A DNA stretch of 64,000 bases from Thermotoga petrophila RKU-1. GTDB taxonomy: Bacteria; Thermotogota; Thermotogae; Thermotogales; Thermotogaceae. The stretch spans positions 806,001 through 870,000 of the forward strand of contig NC_009486.1 in NCBI RefSeq assembly GCF_000016785.1, given 5' to 3'. The position numbers were made by a program, and so were the translations under genes. The notes under the pieces are model-generated. The model was not told where the DNA came from, did no database searches, and worked only from the letters and a program-made list of their open reading frames with translations. Shown here piece by piece: positions 38,038 to 46,684 of the stretch (positions are counted from its first letter, which is position 1; each line of letters opens with the position of its first letter).

Positions 38038-39237
38038 ATGCCTTTTTACAAATACGTGGCCGTGGAGGGGAGCGGTAAGAAGATAACGGGGGTCATAGAG
38101 GCAGAGAACAAGTTGAAGGCGATATCGATCCTTTCTGAGAGAGGATTGATGGTTGTTCGTGTGGAGGAGAAAAAAAATCCAAAGAAAAGTTCGCCGTTCT
38201 TTCAGATTTCAATCAGCGAAATAGCCACGTTCTGCCGACAGCTTTCCATAATGATTTCGGCCGGTATAAGGATAAAAGAAGCGTTGAACATTCTGGCTCG
38301 TCAGACGGTTTTTTCAAAGCGTTTCAGAAAAGTTATACTGGAAATCGCTCTCAGCGTTGAAACAGGGGATTCTTTAGCAGAAGCTTTCAGAAAAACAGGT
38401 GTTTTCGACAGTGTTTTGATCAGTATGTTAGAAGCAGGAGAAGAAGGTGGAGTCCTTGACAGAACCCTGAAGAGGGCTGCGGACTTTTACGAAAGTATGA
38501 AAAGGCTTCAGGATGAGGTAAAATCCGCCATGGCTTATCCTCTCTTTGTTCTCTTCTTTGCAGTGGTAATCGTACTTGTGATCAGTTTTTACATACTCCC
38601 CAACCTCGTCAGGGCTTTTGGAACTTCTATTCCACTCTCACCCACGATTCAATCTCTTCTAAAAGCCAACGAATTTTTGAGTGAAAACTGGCCGTGGTTC
38701 TCGGTGCTTGTGGTGGGTATCATAGCCGGTATTTTCGTTTTGATGAAATCAAGATACGGTGTTTACATAAAGGAATATCTATCCTTTATTTTTCCACCTG
38801 TCAGGAAGCTCAGACAGAACATGGGGCTCGAACGATTCGCCAGAACACTGGGAATTCTTGTGGGAAGCGGTGTCAGAATAACCGATGCCATAAAGATGGC
38901 CGCTCAGGCTTCCAGTTCACCTTCCATTATCAGAAAAACCGAAGAAATGGTTCGGAAGATATCCGAAGGGAAAACCCTTCGAGATACTTTTGCAGAAAGT
39001 GGAGTTTTTCCACAGTTGATTTATGAGATGATCGGAACAGGAGAAGAGACTGGAAAAGTCGACGAAGTGATGGAAAGAGTGGCCGACTTCTACGAGGACA
39101 TAGTGAAAAACAGTGTGAAGCAGCTTGTTTCTCTGGTAGAGCCTCTATTGATAGCAGGTGTTGGTGGATTTGTGGCTTTCCTCGCGTATTCGATATACAC
39201 CACGGTATTTCAGCTTCAGAGGAGTATAGGTGGATGA
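38038..39237 (+). CDS. pilC: Type IV pilus/type II secretion inner-membrane platform protein (PilC/GspF)
   Basis: A 399-residue platform protein with two T2SSF repeats (about 63-185 and 265-388), each with ATFCRQLSIMISAGIRIKEAL or LERFARTLGILVGSGVRITDA, and three membrane helices near 165-190, 215-237 and 370-392. It converts motor ATPase movement into pilin assembly. The partner ATPase is not nearby. Confidence 0.95.
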   Translation: MPFYKYVAVEGSGKKITGVIEAENKLKAISILSERGLMVVRVEEKKNPKKSSPFFQISISEIATFCRQLSIMISAGIRIKEALNILARQTVFSKRFRKVILEIALSVETGDSLAEAFRKTGVFDSVLISMLEAGEEGGVLDRTLKRAADFYESMKRLQDEVKSAMAYPLFVLFFAVVIVLVISFYILPNLVRAFGTSIPLSPTIQSLLKANEFLSENWPWFSVLVVGIIAGIFVLMKSRYGVYIKEYLSFIFPPVRKLRQNMGLERFARTLGILVGSGVRITDAIKMAAQASSSPSIIRKTEEMVRKISEGKTLRDTFAESGVFPQLIYEMIGTGEETGKVDEVMERVADFYEDIVKNSVKQLVSLVEPLLIAGVGGFVAFLAYSIYTTVFQLQRSIGG

Positions 39238-39617
39238 ACATTATCGAAGTTCTCATAGTCATCGCTATTTCATTGATGATAATGGGATTTTTCATACCGA
39301 CTCTGATGTTCAAGCTGGGAAAAGATCATCAGGCTGTTGCTTTTAAGATCATGGCGATTAGAATGATTGAAAGAACATCCAGAAACGGACTTTTGATAAT
39401 AGAAGATAATGGGAAAATAGTAACTTACGATCCTCATAAGAATGAAAAGAAAATCTATGAATTTCCATTCACTTTTCTCTCCAAAACGGCTGTAGATGGA
39501 GAAGACATCACTTTCAAAAATGGGTTTGTCTCCACAGCAGGTACTGTCTATGGAGATGGGTGGTGGATCACCGTGGAACCAGTCACTGGCAGAATGAGAT
39601 TGTACGGGGGGAGATAG
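39234..39617 (+). CDS. Pseudopilin-like protein without leader peptide
   Basis: A 127-residue protein that begins MNIIEVLIVIAISLMIMGFF, the hydrophobic spine of a type IV pilin. If the initiator Met is position +1, Glu falls at the conserved +5. There is no upstream K/R-G cleavage site, and the upstream frame (EEYRW before the Met) adds none. The C-terminal part is a small beta domain (GDGWWITVEPVTGRMRLYGG). It overlaps pilC by 4 nt. Likely a minor pseudopilin that needs no processing. Confidence 0.8.
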   Translation: MNIIEVLIVIAISLMIMGFFIPTLMFKLGKDHQAVAFKIMAIRMIERTSRNGLLIIEDNGKIVTYDPHKNEKKIYEFPFTFLSKTAVDGEDITFKNGFVSTAGTVYGDGWWITVEPVTGRMRLYGGR

Positions 39618-39618
39618 C

Positions 39619-40599
39619 TTGCAGCTTTTCTACAATGATATCCTTTCCCTGAATTGGTGTTCACATTGTGTGGAGATATCCCGTGCGAGAATGAGAGGGT
39701 CCAAATTGAAGCTGTTAGATCACAAATTATCTCTTCTGGAAATAACAGATGAGGAGAAATCAGATGAAATTATACTGAATCTTTCAAGAAACGTGAAAAA
39801 AGATCTTGAAGATATAGTCGTTGCGAACGTGTCCATGGAGAACGTGCTGGTGATGAATATAAAAGTTCCTCCTACGTTGAACAGGCAAAATGCTGTAGAG
39901 TATGCCACGATGGAAATATCAAGAAATCTTGGTATACTCCCTGAACAGCTTGTTGTTGCTCCTCTGGATATTCACGGTGGTGAGGGATTGTTTTTTGTTT
40001 CAAAGGTTGACCAGGTGAAGAGTTTTGTAACAGACCTCATGAAAAAAGAGTTCCCAGAAACGGATGTGGTTATTCCCGATATCGTTAAATATCTTGAAGT
40101 GTTCGAATTCTATTTTGGGAAGCGTTTGAAAGGAACCAGTGTTCTTACGGTGATTTCTTTCTTGAGTGACTATTATTCCATAGTTGTTCTCGAGAACAAC
40201 CACTATCGTTCTCTCAGGTTGCTTTTTTCGATGTTCTGGGACTATATGGACATTGTGGTGGAGAACACGGGAGTTCAGCCCAAGGAATTGATGGAAGGAA
40301 CAGTGAATGTAGATCTTGACTTTTTACAACCATATTTTGGTGATTTCCTGATTGAACTCGACAGAGAAGTCAAAGTGTCTTTGGATGAAGTTAATCTGAG
40401 CAGGGTCGATCAGTTCTTCTACATCGTTGATCCCCCAATCCTTTCACCAGTTCTTTCTCAGACGCTGGAAAAGTTCGAGGGAGTAGCGTTGAAGCAAGGA
40501 ATCGTTCCTTCTTTTAAACCTGGTGTATCCTTAGGAACCCTTGGTTTGATGATAAGGGGGGGCAGGGAAATTGGAAAAGTTAAACATCTATCCGTTTAA
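39619..40599 (+). CDS. Divergent PilM/GspL-like protein
   Basis: A 326-residue cytoplasmic protein at the PilM position. The start VEISRARMRGSKLKLLDHKLSLLEI and later VSMENVLVMNIKVPPTLNRQNAVEYATMEISRNLGILPEQ resemble PilM/GspL, but the actin-type nucleotide motifs are not clear. Start is TTG 39619 after GGGGGGAG. It overlaps the next gene by 29 nt. Assignment rests on order: M-N-O-P before a secretin. Confidence 0.68.
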   Translation: MQLFYNDILSLNWCSHCVEISRARMRGSKLKLLDHKLSLLEITDEEKSDEIILNLSRNVKKDLEDIVVANVSMENVLVMNIKVPPTLNRQNAVEYATMEISRNLGILPEQLVVAPLDIHGGEGLFFVSKVDQVKSFVTDLMKKEFPETDVVIPDIVKYLEVFEFYFGKRLKGTSVLTVISFLSDYYSIVVLENNHYRSLRLLFSMFWDYMDIVVENTGVQPKELMEGTVNVDLDFLQPYFGDFLIELDREVKVSLDEVNLSRVDQFFYIVDPPILSPVLSQTLEKFEGVALKQGIVPSFKPGVSLGTLGLMIRGGREIGKVKHLSV

Positions 40600-41119
40600 G
40601 AAACGAAAGGTAAAGTTATCTACTTTTCTGGTACTGTTGGTCGTCATGTTGCTTCCTCCTGTTTCCTTTAATATCTACTTTAGTTATGCGAAAGAGCAAA
40701 TGATAGAAAGACTGCAAAGTGATTACTCCGAGGTTTTGAGAGCGTATTCTGTGAAGCTTTCGAAAGATTCTTCCAAAAATCTGGAGGAAATCTCCCGTGT
40801 GGAAAGCGTTTTTATGAACCAAATAAAATCATTGGAAGTGAGAGTCAATCAACTGAATGCTTTCCTTGACAAAAGGAAGAAATGGGAAGATTTTTTGAAG
40901 GTTTTGCTGAACATTTTTGAAGATCAAAATCGAACTCTGTGCTATCTTGATTTCTCTCAAGAAAAAGCCATTGTTGAGTTTTACGAAGTTTCCAAAAACG
41001 TTGTAAGTAGTACTTTTCAAAACTCGAATGTGAGTACAAGTCTCCTGTTTGAAGAAAAACTACCGGAAGGTTTTTATCTGAGAAAGTACAGGCTTGAGTA
41101 CAAGGCGGTGGGAAAGTGA
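40571..41119 (+). CDS. PilN-like inner-membrane assembly protein
   Basis: A 182-residue bitopic protein: N-terminal EKLNIYPFKKRK, a common PilN opening (xxINLLPxR), a membrane helix at about 17-38, a coiled coil (40-100), and a small periplasmic ferredoxin-like tail. TTG start. Pairs with the next gene in known systems. Confidence 0.72.
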   Translation: MEKLNIYPFKKRKVKLSTFLVLLVVMLLPPVSFNIYFSYAKEQMIERLQSDYSEVLRAYSVKLSKDSSKNLEEISRVESVFMNQIKSLEVRVNQLNAFLDKRKKWEDFLKVLLNIFEDQNRTLCYLDFSQEKAIVEFYEVSKNVVSSTFQNSNVSTSLLFEEKLPEGFYLRKYRLEYKAVGK

Positions 41120-41532
41120 GGGGAATAAACAGAAAGTTCGCTATCTGGTTCGCTGTTTTGACTCTCCTCGTGCTGGTCTTTGGACTTGTGGTGCCAGATT
41201 TTGTGATCTTCATGTCCAACACCAAAAAACTGGAACAGAAACTTCAAAACCTGGCACCTGCTTTCAAGGTTTTCACCTTGAAGCAAAGGGAATACGAGGA
41301 AATAATAAAGACGATCATGAGTACACCTGAGTTTCAATACAATTTCACCGAAAAAGAAATCAGTGTTGAAGAAGTTGAAGATCTCTTAAAGGAACTTGCT
41401 GAGACACGAAGGGTGACAGTGAAGACCTTGACCATTGATGCGAAAAGAGTTATACCGATCAATTTCTTCGGTACCCCAATATCTCAACCCAGTGTGAAGA
41501 TCACCCTTGAATTAGAAAGGGTGAAACAATGA
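41116..41532 (+). CDS. PilO-like inner-membrane assembly protein
   Basis: A 138-residue bitopic protein with a helix at about 9-32, a coiled coil (37-60) and a periplasmic domain ending VKITLELERVKQ. GTG start overlaps the previous stop. Identified by size, topology and place between PilN-like and PilP-like genes. Confidence 0.7.
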   Translation: MRGINRKFAIWFAVLTLLVLVFGLVVPDFVIFMSNTKKLEQKLQNLAPAFKVFTLKQREYEEIIKTIMSTPEFQYNFTEKEISVEEVEDLLKELAETRRVTVKTLTIDAKRVIPINFFGTPISQPSVKITLELERVKQ

Positions 41533-41990
41533 ACCGAAGAACGGTGATTCTTCTCGTAATTATGGGGGTTGTGTGGTCATTTGTTCTTTTCTATTTGTTC
41601 GCTGGCAACAGGGAGTCCGGAACTCTTCAGGTGGAAAGGCCAACGGATTTTACGGCGCTGGTGAACAAAATACAGATCAACCCCTTGCTCAAGAAAACGG
41701 CTCAGGAAAATCCTCCAGAATTCTCGTACAGGGTTTTCAATCCCGTGACGCTCAGCTTTGGGAAAGAGGCAGCCGACACTCTGATCGTGACGCTTCCTCC
41801 TCTGAAGTATCGATTCCTGGGTTTCATAAGAACGGTTGACGGGTTAAAAATATTCCTCTCCGATGGGGAAAAACTCTTTGAGGTGTCGGGCGAGAGCCCA
41901 TCTTTTGGAAATTATGTGGTCACCTACGTTTCGAGTCTCGGTGTTCTGGTTCTCGACGTGGAAAATGGTAGATTTTTTTCAATAAGATGA
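41529..41990 (+). CDS. PilP-like periplasmic linker protein
   Basis: A 153-residue protein with an N-terminal membrane anchor (6-24) rather than the lipobox of classical PilP, a Pro-rich linker and a beta domain (LKYRFLGFIRTVDGLKIFLSDGEKLFEVSGE) like the homology region of PilP/GspC. It would join the inner-membrane ring to the secretin. Overlaps the PilO-like gene by 4 nt. Confidence 0.72.
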   Translation: MNRRTVILLVIMGVVWSFVLFYLFAGNRESGTLQVERPTDFTALVNKIQINPLLKKTAQENPPEFSYRVFNPVTLSFGKEAADTLIVTLPPLKYRFLGFIRTVDGLKIFLSDGEKLFEVSGESPSFGNYVVTYVSSLGVLVLDVENGRFFSIR

Positions 41991-42005
41991 GGAGGGGTGG
42001 TATCT

Positions 42006-45000
42006 GTGAGGAGAATACTTCTTATTCTTGTCATGTTGATGTTCAGTGTGTTGTTCTCTGCAGAGCTCGTAGGGGTACTTCCTAAGATAGAGAATGATCG
42101 AGTGATCATAAAGATTCAGGTTTCTTCACCGGTTGAAGATGTTTCGGCAGAAATGAATTCTTCAAAGACTGTGTTCTCCATTTTCATGAAAGGGGTTCAA
42201 ATGAAGATCAGCAGATTCATGGTTCCCGTTGGTGTTGGTCCTGTTGAAGGTGTACGAGTGGTGAACGTTGGCAATGGAGTTATGGTGTCCGCGAGTCTGC
42301 TGGTTCCATTCCCAGGAAGCTACCGTTTAGAAGACAAGACGATAGTGATGGAATTTCCAAGAAGTAAGGAAAGAATCGATGTGTCCTTTGAAAACATGCC
42401 TTTTGAAGATATGGTAAAGTACCTCTCTGAGAGATTGAATCTCAACGTAATCGTTTCAGATAGTGTCAAAAGTGCAACAACGAGTTTGAAACTGAACGAT
42501 GTCACACCCGAAGATGCGCTGAGAGACCTTCTCGTTACATTCGGAGAAGTTGCCTACGCTTATTTTCCGGATGGGACTATGTTCATAGGAAAATACGAAG
42601 AAGTATCCGGAAGGTTTCAGAGATTCTGGGGTATATACAGAGTAGAGAATCAAACAGTTGCCGACAGGATAAAGAGTCTCATTTCTCAGGAAGCCATGAT
42701 AGACTACCTTCCGTCAAAATCTGTTCTCTTCGTCTATGGAACTTCGGAAGAACATGACCTCGTGGCGAGCCTTCTTTCTGTTTCTCCACCCCTTCAGCAA
42801 AAAGAAGTTTCCTTCTCGGTAGATTCAGCGAGAGTGGAAGAACTCCTGACCGCTCTCAAAAGTGTGTATCAGTTCGAGTATCACCTCTTAAAGCCGGTAT
42901 CCAGGGTGATTCTTGTGGGAGATTCTGAGACGATTTCGAAAGTGGAAAGATATATCAAGATTTTGGAAACTCGCGAGCAGGTGTCTGTAGAAGAACAGGT
43001 CCAGATTCCAGCTAAAAAATTCGTCTTTTATGCTTACGATCCAGAATCCGCTGCTTCGCTTATCACTTTACTCCTCGGAATAGATGCTCAGTCTTTCAAG
43101 GACATGAATCTGGTGGTATGTCAGGTGCCGATAGACAGAGAGCAGGAATTGGTTGATTTCATCGCGGAAAACAACCTGGAGCTCGGTGAGATGTTCTATC
43201 TGGATATCAAAAAAGGTGAGGAAAACTTTCTCAAAGAAACGATACAGTTTCTTGGAGTACCAGATTCGAGGCTGAGGTTTCTCAACATCGACGGTGAGAA
43301 TGTAAAAGTCGGTATCTCAGTTCCAAAAGCGGTCTATGAGAAAATATCTCCCATTCTGAAAAAAATGTTGTCACTCAGGAGAAAGAATTTCATCGTGAAA
43401 AGTGTGGAATTGAAAAAGGAGATTCAGCAGGAAATGTTAGACGCGATAACGAGAATGTACGGGGTTTCTATAGAAAAAATAGGAAACTTCCTCTTCATAG
43501 AGGGAGCCAATGGTTCCGTTGAAAACGCTGAAGAACAACTGGAGAAACTCCAGAGTGAACACACACAATTTCTGAAAATTACCTTAAAAGCTGAAAATGT
43601 GGAAGATTTGAAGAGATTCATGAAGGAAAAGTACGGTGTTGAATTCGAGTACTTTTCTTCTCTGAAAGTGGCAATGCTGAGTGGAAAGGAAGAAGAAAGC
43701 GTTCAGAAAGCTGCTGAAGAATTGCAGTTAATTTCTTCGGAGGAAAGGATCATAAGGTTCGTGAAAAAATCCGAGAATGTACCGATCGATAAAGCGAAAA
43801 GCGTTGTTTCACAACTCTACAGTGTATCCATAGAAGAGTTAGGGAATGAGCTTGTCGTCATCGGTGAAAGAGAAGAAGTCGAAAAAGCTGCTGATCTTCT
43901 TCAGAAAATTTTCTCTTCCGAAGTAGAGATCTCGCGTGACTTTGTGAAGTTGCCCAGCTGGATTGATGAACAAGAGAAACTCCTCGAAGTTGTGAAAAAC
44001 AGCGCCGGGATCACTTACGAAATACTGGACGGAGTAGTTTACTTTGAAGGGACAAAGGAGAATGTCGAAAAGGCAAAGGAACTCTTCTCAGACATAGTGG
44101 AAAAACTCGGAGAAGTACGCAAAGAAGAGAAAGTGGAATTCCTCGAAGTGGATTCTTCCTTCCCTGTTGACGAATTTATAAATCTCTCTAGCAAACTGTA
44201 TCCGGATGCTACCTGTTTCAGTCTCGATCAATTGGGTCTTCTGGTTCTCAAGGGATCTTCAGAAGCGGTCGAAGATCTTTCGAACATGTATCGTTCTTTC
44301 TTCGAGAGATACCAAAAGATAGTGAAAGAAAACGTGTTCGATCGACTCATGCTAGAGGTTCCGAGCGGTTTTTCCTTCGAGGAATTCAAGACCTTCCTGG
44401 AAGTTCTCGTTCCAGAAGTCAAACAGGTTGTCTATCTTGACAAATTGAACTTGCTCTTGGTGGAAGTTCCTGTTTCACAATCGGAAAGAGTGAGTAGTCT
44501 ACTCGATACGTTCTTGAAAAAAGAAGAAGCTGTATCGGAAAAGAAAGCGGTGAAAAGCGTCACCATACCTTCCGGTGTGAACCCTGACGAACTTTCTTCT
44601 TACTTGAAGAAACTCCTCAGAAATGTCGAGATCACGGTCTTTCCGAACATGGGCCAGATGATCGTAGAGGGACCAGAAAACGAGGTGGAAAAAGCTGTAG
44701 AACTCGTAGAAGCGGAAAAAGAAAAGATCGTTTTGAAGGAAAAGAAAGATTACGTAAAGGTTTCTGATGGTAAGCTGACTATAAACGCAGAGGATGTTTC
44801 GCTTTACGATCTTCTCGCAGAAATCGCCAGTGAACTTGGAATTTCGGTGATGTTTGTTTCCATTCCTTCGGAAAAGATCACGATGAAGGCAGATGATATC
44901 ACTTGGGAAAAGTTCGTGGATCTGATCTCTCAGAACTATGGTTATTTGTTTGACAACAAAAGCGGTGTTTACGTTCTCTCAAAACCCAAACAGGATCTTG

Positions 45001-45854
45001 CAAGGCGTTACGTTTACGACGTGCCGCACAATTTCGATCAAATAAAGGCTTTGATCGAATTCTACGGAGGAACGGTTTATGTGGATTCTCTGAACAACTT
45101 CATGGTGGTAACGGGAATTTCTGAGACGATAAAGAAAGAACTGGACAATATCATAGAAAAATTGAAAAAGCCGACGAAACAGATAGAGATATCCGCGAAG
45201 ATAGTGGATAGATCTTTGATTGACAGACTAAGCAAAGAAGCCGGTCTCGAATTGACGGGAGGGAATGTGAATGTGGGGTCCTCTGGTGCAGGGATATCTT
45301 TCTCTGTGACCGACTACCTTGATTTCGAAAAGATCTTTGGAGGAATTTTGAACAGCAATCTTTCTCTCCAGTTCTCAGATCAAAAGACAAACACCCTCGA
45401 TGACATTCTTGCGAGTCCCAGAATCGTCACCACCAGTGGAAAAGAGGCGAGAATACTGATAGGTGACAGAATACCGTACGTTACGGACACCAATGGAGAC
45501 GGGACTCCGGAAGTGCAATTCCTCGAGACCGGTATAGAACTCAACATCACACCGTTTGTACGAAGTGACGACACTATAGAGCTCGATCTCTTTGTGAAGG
45601 CTAGCGAACCTGGAAACTACATAAATGAAGTGCCTGGAGAGAGAACACGAGAGACTCAGACACACCTCATCGTGAAGAACGGAAGTACCATAACGATAGG
45701 AGGTCTGATCAGGGAAGTAACGAATGTAACAGAGAGCAAACTACCTTTCCTCGGAGATTTACCGGTGATAGGACAGTTCTTCAGAACAAAGTCCGAAAAT
45801 AAGGAAAAACGAGATCTCATCATATTCCTCACCGTAAGGGTGGTGGAACCATGA
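42006..45854 (+). CDS. Giant secretin (PilQ/GspD family) with many repeated N-domains
   Basis: A 1282-residue outer-membrane channel protein. Residues 1-20 are a signal peptide, 20-120 a beta domain, 124-195 an N0/STN domain. Then come eleven N1-like modules of about 64 residues (206-903), each ending in a hydrophobic strand plus G-x4-V-x2-A-x2-L helix (e.g. LVVIGEREEVEKAADLLQKI). A second N0-like domain lies at 915-995, one more N1 module at 1000-1055, and the secretin barrel at 1058-1282 with GIELNITPFV and PFLGDLPVIGQFF. Typical secretins have 400-800 residues. GTG 42006 gives the best signal peptide; GTG 41997 lies inside the ribosome-binding site. Confidence 0.92.
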   Translation: MRRILLILVMLMFSVLFSAELVGVLPKIENDRVIIKIQVSSPVEDVSAEMNSSKTVFSIFMKGVQMKISRFMVPVGVGPVEGVRVVNVGNGVMVSASLLVPFPGSYRLEDKTIVMEFPRSKERIDVSFENMPFEDMVKYLSERLNLNVIVSDSVKSATTSLKLNDVTPEDALRDLLVTFGEVAYAYFPDGTMFIGKYEEVSGRFQRFWGIYRVENQTVADRIKSLISQEAMIDYLPSKSVLFVYGTSEEHDLVASLLSVSPPLQQKEVSFSVDSARVEELLTALKSVYQFEYHLLKPVSRVILVGDSETISKVERYIKILETREQVSVEEQVQIPAKKFVFYAYDPESAASLITLLLGIDAQSFKDMNLVVCQVPIDREQELVDFIAENNLELGEMFYLDIKKGEENFLKETIQFLGVPDSRLRFLNIDGENVKVGISVPKAVYEKISPILKKMLSLRRKNFIVKSVELKKEIQQEMLDAITRMYGVSIEKIGNFLFIEGANGSVENAEEQLEKLQSEHTQFLKITLKAENVEDLKRFMKEKYGVEFEYFSSLKVAMLSGKEEESVQKAAEELQLISSEERIIRFVKKSENVPIDKAKSVVSQLYSVSIEELGNELVVIGEREEVEKAADLLQKIFSSEVEISRDFVKLPSWIDEQEKLLEVVKNSAGITYEILDGVVYFEGTKENVEKAKELFSDIVEKLGEVRKEEKVEFLEVDSSFPVDEFINLSSKLYPDATCFSLDQLGLLVLKGSSEAVEDLSNMYRSFFERYQKIVKENVFDRLMLEVPSGFSFEEFKTFLEVLVPEVKQVVYLDKLNLLLVEVPVSQSERVSSLLDTFLKKEEAVSEKKAVKSVTIPSGVNPDELSSYLKKLLRNVEITVFPNMGQMIVEGPENEVEKAVELVEAEKEKIVLKEKKDYVKVSDGKLTINAEDVSLYDLLAEIASELGISVMFVSIPSEKITMKADDITWEKFVDLISQNYGYLFDNKSGVYVLSKPKQDLARRYVYDVPHNFDQIKALIEFYGGTVYVDSLNNFMVVTGISETIKKELDNIIEKLKKPTKQIEISAKIVDRSLIDRLSKEAGLELTGGNVNVGSSGAGISFSVTDYLDFEKIFGGILNSNLSLQFSDQKTNTLDDILASPRIVTTSGKEARILIGDRIPYVTDTNGDGTPEVQFLETGIELNITPFVRSDDTIELDLFVKASEPGNYINEVPGERTRETQTHLIVKNGSTITIGGLIREVTNVTESKLPFLGDLPVIGQFFRTKSENKEKRDLIIFLTVRVVEP

Positions 45855-46684
45855 AAAGAAAACCGGCCGTGGCCGGCCTTTTTTATCCCTCCAGGAGAGA
45901 TGAACTCGTTGAACAAATCAGAATTTGCTTTCTCGACAAAAGAATTGGACCGGGTGAGTTGCCGGATCCTTCCGAAACAAAGCTTCAAAGTCCCATTGGC
46001 TTCGTTTCTCCCCATGCTGGTTACATCTACAGTGGGCCTGTTGCCGCGTGGGGGTTCCTCGAGGTGGCTAAGTTCGGCGAACCTTCTGTCGTGGTTATTA
46101 TCGGACCAAATCACACAGGCCTGGGAAGGCCTGTGGGTGTGTGGCCAGAGGGTGAATGGGAAACTCCACTTGGAACCGTTCCGGTGAATCAGCGTGCAGC
46201 AGAGATCATCTTGAACAGCTCCAGATACGCTGAGGAAGACTTCATGTCTCATATCAGAGAGCATTCTATTGAGGTTCAAATTCCGTTTCTTCAGTTCGTG
46301 TTTGGGGACGTTTCCATAGTCCCCATATGTCTGATGGATCAAAGCCCTGCGGTTGCTGAAGATCTCGCGAACGCTTTGACAAAACTCGTAGCCGAGTTCC
46401 CAAGTGTTCTGATAATAGCTTCAACAGATCTGAACCACTACGAGGATCAAAGAACAACCCTGAGGAAAGATTCCTATATCATGGAAGCAATAAGAAATAA
46501 AGATCCTCGTCTTCTATATGAGTATCTTGTGAAGGAAGATATAAGTATGTGTGGATACGGTGGAGTGGCCACCCTTTTGAACATGAATTTCAAAAACGCC
46601 AGGATTTTGAAACACGCGACCAGCGGAGATGTATCCGGTGATAAACTGGAAGTCGTTGGATATCTCAGTGCGATCCTCTTCTGA
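45851..46684 (+). CDS. Memo-family protein (AmmeMemoRadiSam system protein B)
   Basis: A 277-residue member of the MEMO1 family, related by fold to ring-cleaving dioxygenases. KPAVAGLFYPSRRDEL, SPHAGYIYSGPVAAWG, IIGPNHTG and STDLNHYE hold the conserved His residues. Function in bacteria is unknown. It overlaps the secretin stop by 4 nt and the 3' end of murJ by 20 bp. Its usual partners (AMMECR1 and an associated radical SAM gene) are not adjacent. Confidence 0.9.
   Translation: MKRKPAVAGLFYPSRRDELVEQIRICFLDKRIGPGELPDPSETKLQSPIGFVSPHAGYIYSGPVAAWGFLEVAKFGEPSVVVIIGPNHTGLGRPVGVWPEGEWETPLGTVPVNQRAAEIILNSSRYAEEDFMSHIREHSIEVQIPFLQFVFGDVSIVPICLMDQSPAVAEDLANALTKLVAEFPSVLIIASTDLNHYEDQRTTLRKDSYIMEAIRNKDPRLLYEYLVKEDISMCGYGGVATLLNMNFKNARILKHATSGDVSGDKLEVVGYLSAILF

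Follow-up and report, generated by a model that had tools for sequence, protein, structure and literature searches.

Eight genes, all on the + strand and packed into positions 38038-46684 of the window analysed here (a 64-kb stretch, bases 806001-870000 of the single-contig, 1,823,511-base genome of Thermotoga petrophila RKU-1), encode the platform protein PilC, a pseudopilin, PilM-, PilN-, PilO- and PilP-like proteins, a PilQ-type secretin and a Memo-family protein (Table 1). Neighbouring genes overlap by 4-29 nt or are separated by gaps of 1-6 nt. An earlier, sequence-only reading of the window had proposed this list, and the same open reading frames are confirmed here at all eight positions. 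We consider it highly probable that the operon is the core of the cell's single, complete but scattered type IVa-like pilus/DNA-uptake machine, with a channel lengthened for a wide periplasm. Our results document the identities of the genes (for N and O, solely from gene order and topology), their single copies, their co-occurrence across the phylum and their fixed order.

The identities of PilC, the secretin and Memo are certain by the standards of Pfam and NCBIfam models. For the M, N, O, P and pseudopilin proteins of the window, searched singly, Pfam gave no convincing match, and hence the earlier description of M-N-O-P as highly divergent is correct. Family profiles (relatives from 40 neighbourhoods, typed with iterated profiles) were more informative: that of M matched the solved PilM chains of Thermus (2ych, E 1.1e-19), 3jc8 (E 2.6e-16) and 5eox (E 1e-7), and PilM_2 of Pfam matched directly 3 of the 27 M relatives (best E 9.7e-25). 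The M protein ends without a transmembrane segment and N is a separate gene; judged by these matches, M is a stand-alone PilM of the kind found in type IV pili, and not a GspL fusion. The P family profile matched solved PilP (2ivw, E 1.2e-4; 4av2, E 1.7e-4), and PilM and PilP are both confirmed at the profile level. Nearly all N relatives share a brief conserved stretch at the N-terminus, typically (I/V/L)NLY plus Lys or Arg, ahead of one transmembrane segment; this stretch recalls the INLLP motif of PilN, the site by which PilN binds PilM. O is characterized by one N-terminal transmembrane segment and its position in the operon. The four genes are real but divergent, as had been proposed.

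Table 1. Features of the pilC-Memo operon (window positions; start codons as called)
Feature	Position	Strand	Evidence
pilC, inner-membrane platform protein, 399 aa	38038..39237	+	PF00482, E 2.8e-60
pseudopilin, 127 aa	39234..39617	+	operon position; hydrophobic N-terminus common to relatives
pilM, 326 aa, cytosolic, TTG start	39619..40599	+	family profile vs solved PilM; PilM_2 Pfam in relatives
pilN-like, 182 aa, TTG start	40571..41119	+	gene order, N-terminal motif, one transmembrane segment
pilO-like, 138 aa	41116..41532	+	gene order and topology (one N-terminal transmembrane segment) only
pilP-like, 153 aa, N-terminal transmembrane/signal segment, C-terminal PilP-matching domain	41529..41990	+	family profile
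pilQ-type secretin, 1285 aa, expanded periplasmic region, GTG start	41997..45854	+	PF00263 (E 1.8e-43), PF03958, TIGR02515
N1 (Secretin_N/KH-like) repeat array inside secretin	42834..44711	+	repeat hidden Markov model
outer-membrane secretin domain, residues 1131-1284	45387..45848	+	PF00263
Memo-family gene, 277 aa	45851..46684	+	PF01875, E 9.1e-71; TIGR04336, E 6.2e-91

The sequence-only reading had also described a reduced assembly, lacking an ATPase, a prepilin peptidase and a major pilin and borrowing its motor from another locus. "Lacking" holds for the locus, where profile searches of the 64-kb window gave no match for PilB, PilT, PilD or N_methyl pilins, but not for the organism, because all of these are encoded elsewhere on the chromosome (C1): PilB (C1:81792, 567 aa; PF00437, E 1.8e-136) in an ftsA-ftsZ-pilB operon, PilT (C1:1409445, 360 aa; PF00437, E 6.5e-49), PilD (C1:1022295, 240 aa; PF01478, E 2.8e-17), a major pilin of class III (MRRRAGFTLIELLIVMAI; C1:1488685; PF07963, E 2.0e-9), and a minor-pilin cluster (C1:1619130-1621240) adjoining flaG-fliD. 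We rejected the idea that parts are missing from the genome, and with it the "reduced" label; the motor does come from another locus, PilB being encoded on the same chromosome. PilC, PilB, PilT and PilD are each encoded once in the genome, together with the major pilin and the minor pilins, and the pilC of the window is the genome's only PilC/GspF-type gene, so that a single platform serves all the scattered parts. The minor-pilin cluster (L013:7128-9242) lies directly upstream of flaG-fliD, and one of its products, of 452 aa, has a repetitive region rich in SNN. A second, small secretin (C1:1625917; L013:13903-15066, 387 aa) belongs to a separate gene run with probably exported proteins of 544 and 368 aa.

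This parts list shares pilB, pilC, pilD, pilT, pilE and pilQ homologues with the competence gene list published for Thermotoga sp. RQ7 (PMC5637354), itself naturally transformable (PMC4029938). For T. maritima the same paper gives TM0837 (pilB), TM0094 (pilC), TM0088 and TM1117 (pilQ), TM1696 (pilD), TM1362 (pilT), TM1271 (pilE), plus comEA and comEC homologues; it reports that none of these genes are grouped into operons and its table names no genes between pilC and pilQ (PMC5637354). The M-N-O-P genes, the Memo link, the ftsZ-pilB link and the secretin repeat expansion described here are not part of that list.

Searches of 103 Thermotogota genomes recovered a PF00437 ATPase in 103, Memo in 100, PilD in 99, N_methyl pilins in 98, and PilC and the secretin in 96 each, with many of the absences falling in incomplete assemblies. 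Thus, the ATPase, PilD and pilins are found alongside PilC in most of these genomes, and the absence of the missing genes from all relatives, which the sequence-only reading had envisaged as the outcome that would count against it, was not observed. The order pilC-pilin-M-N-O-P-Q-Memo, on one strand, recurs across most families sampled. The upstream flank (obg, nadD, dus, rubrerythrin) is common to the nearest genera only and a downstream murJ is found only in families f1, f2 and f5; that is, the operon order is retained while both flanks change. Two groups, which we presume to be Mesotoga-like (f9/g27) and Petrotoga-like (f10), using these names as leads only, deserve separate mention. Petrotoga-like genomes (L048-L055, L067) combine a short PilB (350-386 aa) and a short prepilin peptidase (~160 aa) with an operon that has no recognisable PilM, for which a joint loss is possible; the soluble gene in their PilM slot was considered as PilM and rejected as not recognisable. 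A Mesotoga-like genome (L172:926-5874) carries seven tandem pilin genes with near-identical N-termini, and species related to it have up to 15 N_methyl genes. Secretin length and pilin gene number correlated strongly when genomes were compared (rho 0.74), but at the level of families the correlation was lost (p 0.21), and we therefore claim no link between them.

The pseudopilin of the window begins directly with MNIIEVLIVIAI, without a leader peptide and with Glu at position 5; Trp replaces the Gly before the start, and no ATG, GTG or TTG occurs in the 20 codons upstream. A start at the mature-pilin residue (MNIIE, MTLVE, MSLLE) is seen in the window and in L061, L062, L066, L070, L083, L084 and L085, and in these leaderless operon pseudopilins Trp or a stop codon is found at that position or immediately before it. 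The operon pseudopilins of f8 and f10 retain a leader peptide.

Alternatively, it is possible that the locus encodes a dedicated export machine resembling a type II secretion system (T2SS), which would serve glycosidases or toga proteins and build a short pseudopilus instead of a pilus, as the sequence-only reading had suggested in part. A T2SS shares the GspF/PilC family, a secretin and a pseudopilin with the Thermotoga machine, the PilC of the window is slightly closer to GspF models, and other bacteria provide cases of protein export through type IV filament machines. Further, the toga bears surface hydrolases (PMC3387000). Against this, PilM is encoded apart from PilN with no GspL-type fusion, the genome encodes PilT, the retraction ATPase, as well as a class III major pilin, and there is a single platform gene, which leaves no room for a separate T2SS (GspC and GspM models were not searched in the genome). 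The secretin, moreover, is closer to PilQ than to GspD, both by model scores (181 vs. 141 bits, below the NCBIfam cut-off) and against solved chains, where PilQ was best (97.6 vs. 84.1 bits for GspD). Apart from the somewhat higher GspF scores of PilC, we found no specific support for export of toga enzymes or proteins, and we regard a dedicated export machine as improbable; the locus as a T2SS fragment was likewise rejected (one PilC, separate PilM, PilQ-like secretin; GspC, GspG-K, GspL and GspM models not searched). Protein export may be an additional or side function.

Several observations nevertheless weigh against a pilus/DNA-uptake core. PilC scores 273 bits with the GspF model vs. 233 and 220 with PilC models (all below cut-off), and the AMIN domain, usual but not universal in PilQ, had no Pfam match in residues 25-130, where divergence could hide it. 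PilN and PilO profiles gave no significant match (only coiled-coil noise against solved chains), and the N and O assignments consequently rest on order and topology. Petrotoga-like f10 keeps the operon without a recognisable PilM, and T. maritima proved non-transformable in the RQ7 study (PMC4029938).

Comparison with characterized pili places these points in context. The M-N-O-P-Q order, the separate PilM and PilP are common to the Thermotoga operon and the type IVa pili of Pseudomonas, Neisseria and Myxococcus, from which the former differs in being headed by pilC and the pseudopilin, in having Memo downstream and in lacking an AMIN domain detected by Pfam. The type IVa pilus/DNA-uptake machine of Thermus thermophilus (PilC, PilM-N-O, PilQ, PilF, PilT, PilD) has the same parts, and the likeness extends to a thermophilic life, a wide periplasm, a PilQ with extra N rings, and a PilM that is the closest solved one. 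In contrast to Thermus, the Thermotoga genes are scattered, PilM-P are missed by standard models, the secretin is paired with Memo, and pilB lies in the ftsZ operon. What goes beyond the ordinary here is the conserved operon order with Memo, the position of pilB after ftsZ, and the wide range of secretin repeat number.

The repeats of the secretin follow the consensus EIPPGVSVEELKELLESLGIDVEILEVGNGLILIGTEEDVEKAKELIEE at a spacing of ~67 aa. With a repeat model trained on these secretins, on which all counts depend, the whole window protein has 10 copies (7 with E <1e-3), of which 8 repeats were detected within the tabulated array, and there is room for ~12. The repeat-unit profile gave only noise against solved chains, and the assignment of the repeats as N1 therefore rests on PF03958, which also matches the window secretin. 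At the same operon slot the secretin ranges from 631 aa with a few repeats in f10, through 2,635 aa with 27 repeats in G019, to open frames of 3,900-4,575 aa with 41-55 repeats in five Mesotoga-like genomes. Because some repeats of the longest secretins are identical or 66-91% alike, their arrays appear to have grown recently by multi-unit blocks. The long secretin of G021 (L084:7575-15430) is split into several frames inside the repeats, by frameshift, decay or assembly error.

For scale, PilQ of Thermus, called one of the largest characterized secretins (PMC5745081, PMC8578077), has six rings spanning 35 nm (PMC5745081), vs. at least 10 N1 repeats in the Thermotoga secretin and up to 55 in relatives. 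Scaled from Thermus (~3-4 nm per ring), 12-14 periplasmic domains in the window secretin would span ~45-65 nm, near the ~50 nm that separates the toga from the cytoplasmic membrane in T. maritima (PMC3387000), and the Mesotoga-like secretins would exceed 100 nm if all repeats were stacked. The repeat region could instead be a flexible or extended tether of the outer sheath to the cell, or an array drifting under weak constraint, given the several-fold change of repeat number between related genera, the almost identical duplications inside the 4,560-aa and 2,631-aa forms, and the array broken into separate frames in the relative at L084. Very long frames (3,888-4,560 aa), however, are intact in the five Mesotoga-like genomes with constant ~67-aa spacing, and the repeats retain the Secretin_N consensus; we consider tethering or drift unlikely, if not by a wide measure.

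The second unusual feature concerns the supply of the extension ATPase. pilB directly follows ftsZ, on the same strand, in 31 of the 31 genomes fetched, representing ten of eleven families (spacing -98 to +112 nt; f10, with its PilB of 350-386 aa, is among them); for f7, the eleventh family, the order is again seen in L174. The ftsA-ftsZ-pilB order as a whole is fixed across the Thermotogota sampled (L008:7775-11809; L177-L207). In Pseudomonas, the sites of future division recruit PilMNOP and PilQ (PMC5285504); co-supply of PilB with FtsZ would be consistent with an advance installation of this kind.

The proposal that Memo is translationally coupled to the secretin is borne out: the two genes overlap as ATGA in the window, and Memo adjoins the secretin on the same strand in 91 of the 100 Memo-bearing Thermotogota genomes, with 11-273 nt (median 21) between the end of the secretin domain and the Memo domain. 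Among the nine non-adjacent genomes, five are cut by contig ends or have no detected secretin, and four are from f6/f7, where Memo does not lie beside the secretin. In a sample of 80 Memo loci (nearly all from archaea and other phyla, and one from Thermotogota), none of the 79 outside the phylum had pilC, pilM or a secretin by these profiles in flanks of up to 10 kb. Hence, the secretin-Memo link is real and, as far as sampled, phylum-specific. A radical SAM-like gene upstream of pilC in an f6 genome (L058:1701-2579) is possibly an AmmeMemoRadiSam partner. The putative metal-site residues H55, H88, D193, H196 and C234, which we take to be equivalent to the human Memo1 metal site, are invariant in the Memo of 33 Thermotogota. 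Binding of iron and copper is reported for human Memo1 (PMC11081632, PMC9477392). For the Thermotoga protein, the likeliest role is that of a cytosolic enzyme that binds metal and is produced in step with the secretin.

It is somewhat more probable than not that Memo is only an inherited operon neighbour with an unrelated housekeeping role, as it is common among archaea and occurs in many bacteria with no pilus gene nearby, and AMMECR1 (C1:1255543 in this genome) is present in 101 of the 103 Thermotogota but does not lie beside it. This explanation sits less easily with the ATGA overlap, with an adjacency kept while both flanks change, and with g34 (L053/L054, L064/L065), in which Q has parted from pilC-P but is still accompanied by Memo. 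That Memo acts on the pilus machine is possible, but the lesser expectation. More tentative still, and in our opinion rather unlikely, is a combined scheme in which the length of the PilQ channel would be tuned by gain and loss of N1 ring modules (in Mesotoga-like species as many as 40-60 rings, a trans-periplasmic tube of >100 nm) and its building tied to cell division through ftsZ-pilB and to a Memo metal enzyme; if true, the Mesotoga-like tube would be several times longer than any known secretin.

Taken as a pilus/DNA-uptake core, the operon would supply the platform (PilC), the alignment complex (PilM-N-O-P) and the outer-membrane channel (PilQ), with PilB, PilT, PilD and the major and minor pilins supplied from other loci. 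The machine would assemble a retractable pilus with which the cell takes up DNA and attaches to surfaces. The expanded N1 array may form a long ring stack guiding the filament across the wide, toga-covered periplasm, with a copy number that varies with envelope geometry, and joint production of PilB and FtsZ may serve to have machines built at new poles.

In conclusion, once the overlooked PilM-N-O-P genes are named, the list of components of the Thermotoga pilus/competence machine is complete, in a hyperthermophile that serves genetic work. The series of secretins from ~630 to 4,560 aa, at one operon position within one phylum, represents a natural experiment on channel length vs. periplasm width. 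Further, the link to the secretin provides a bacterial context for the widespread but functionally obscure Memo family, and the ftsZ-pilB order suggests that pilus supply is wired to cell division.

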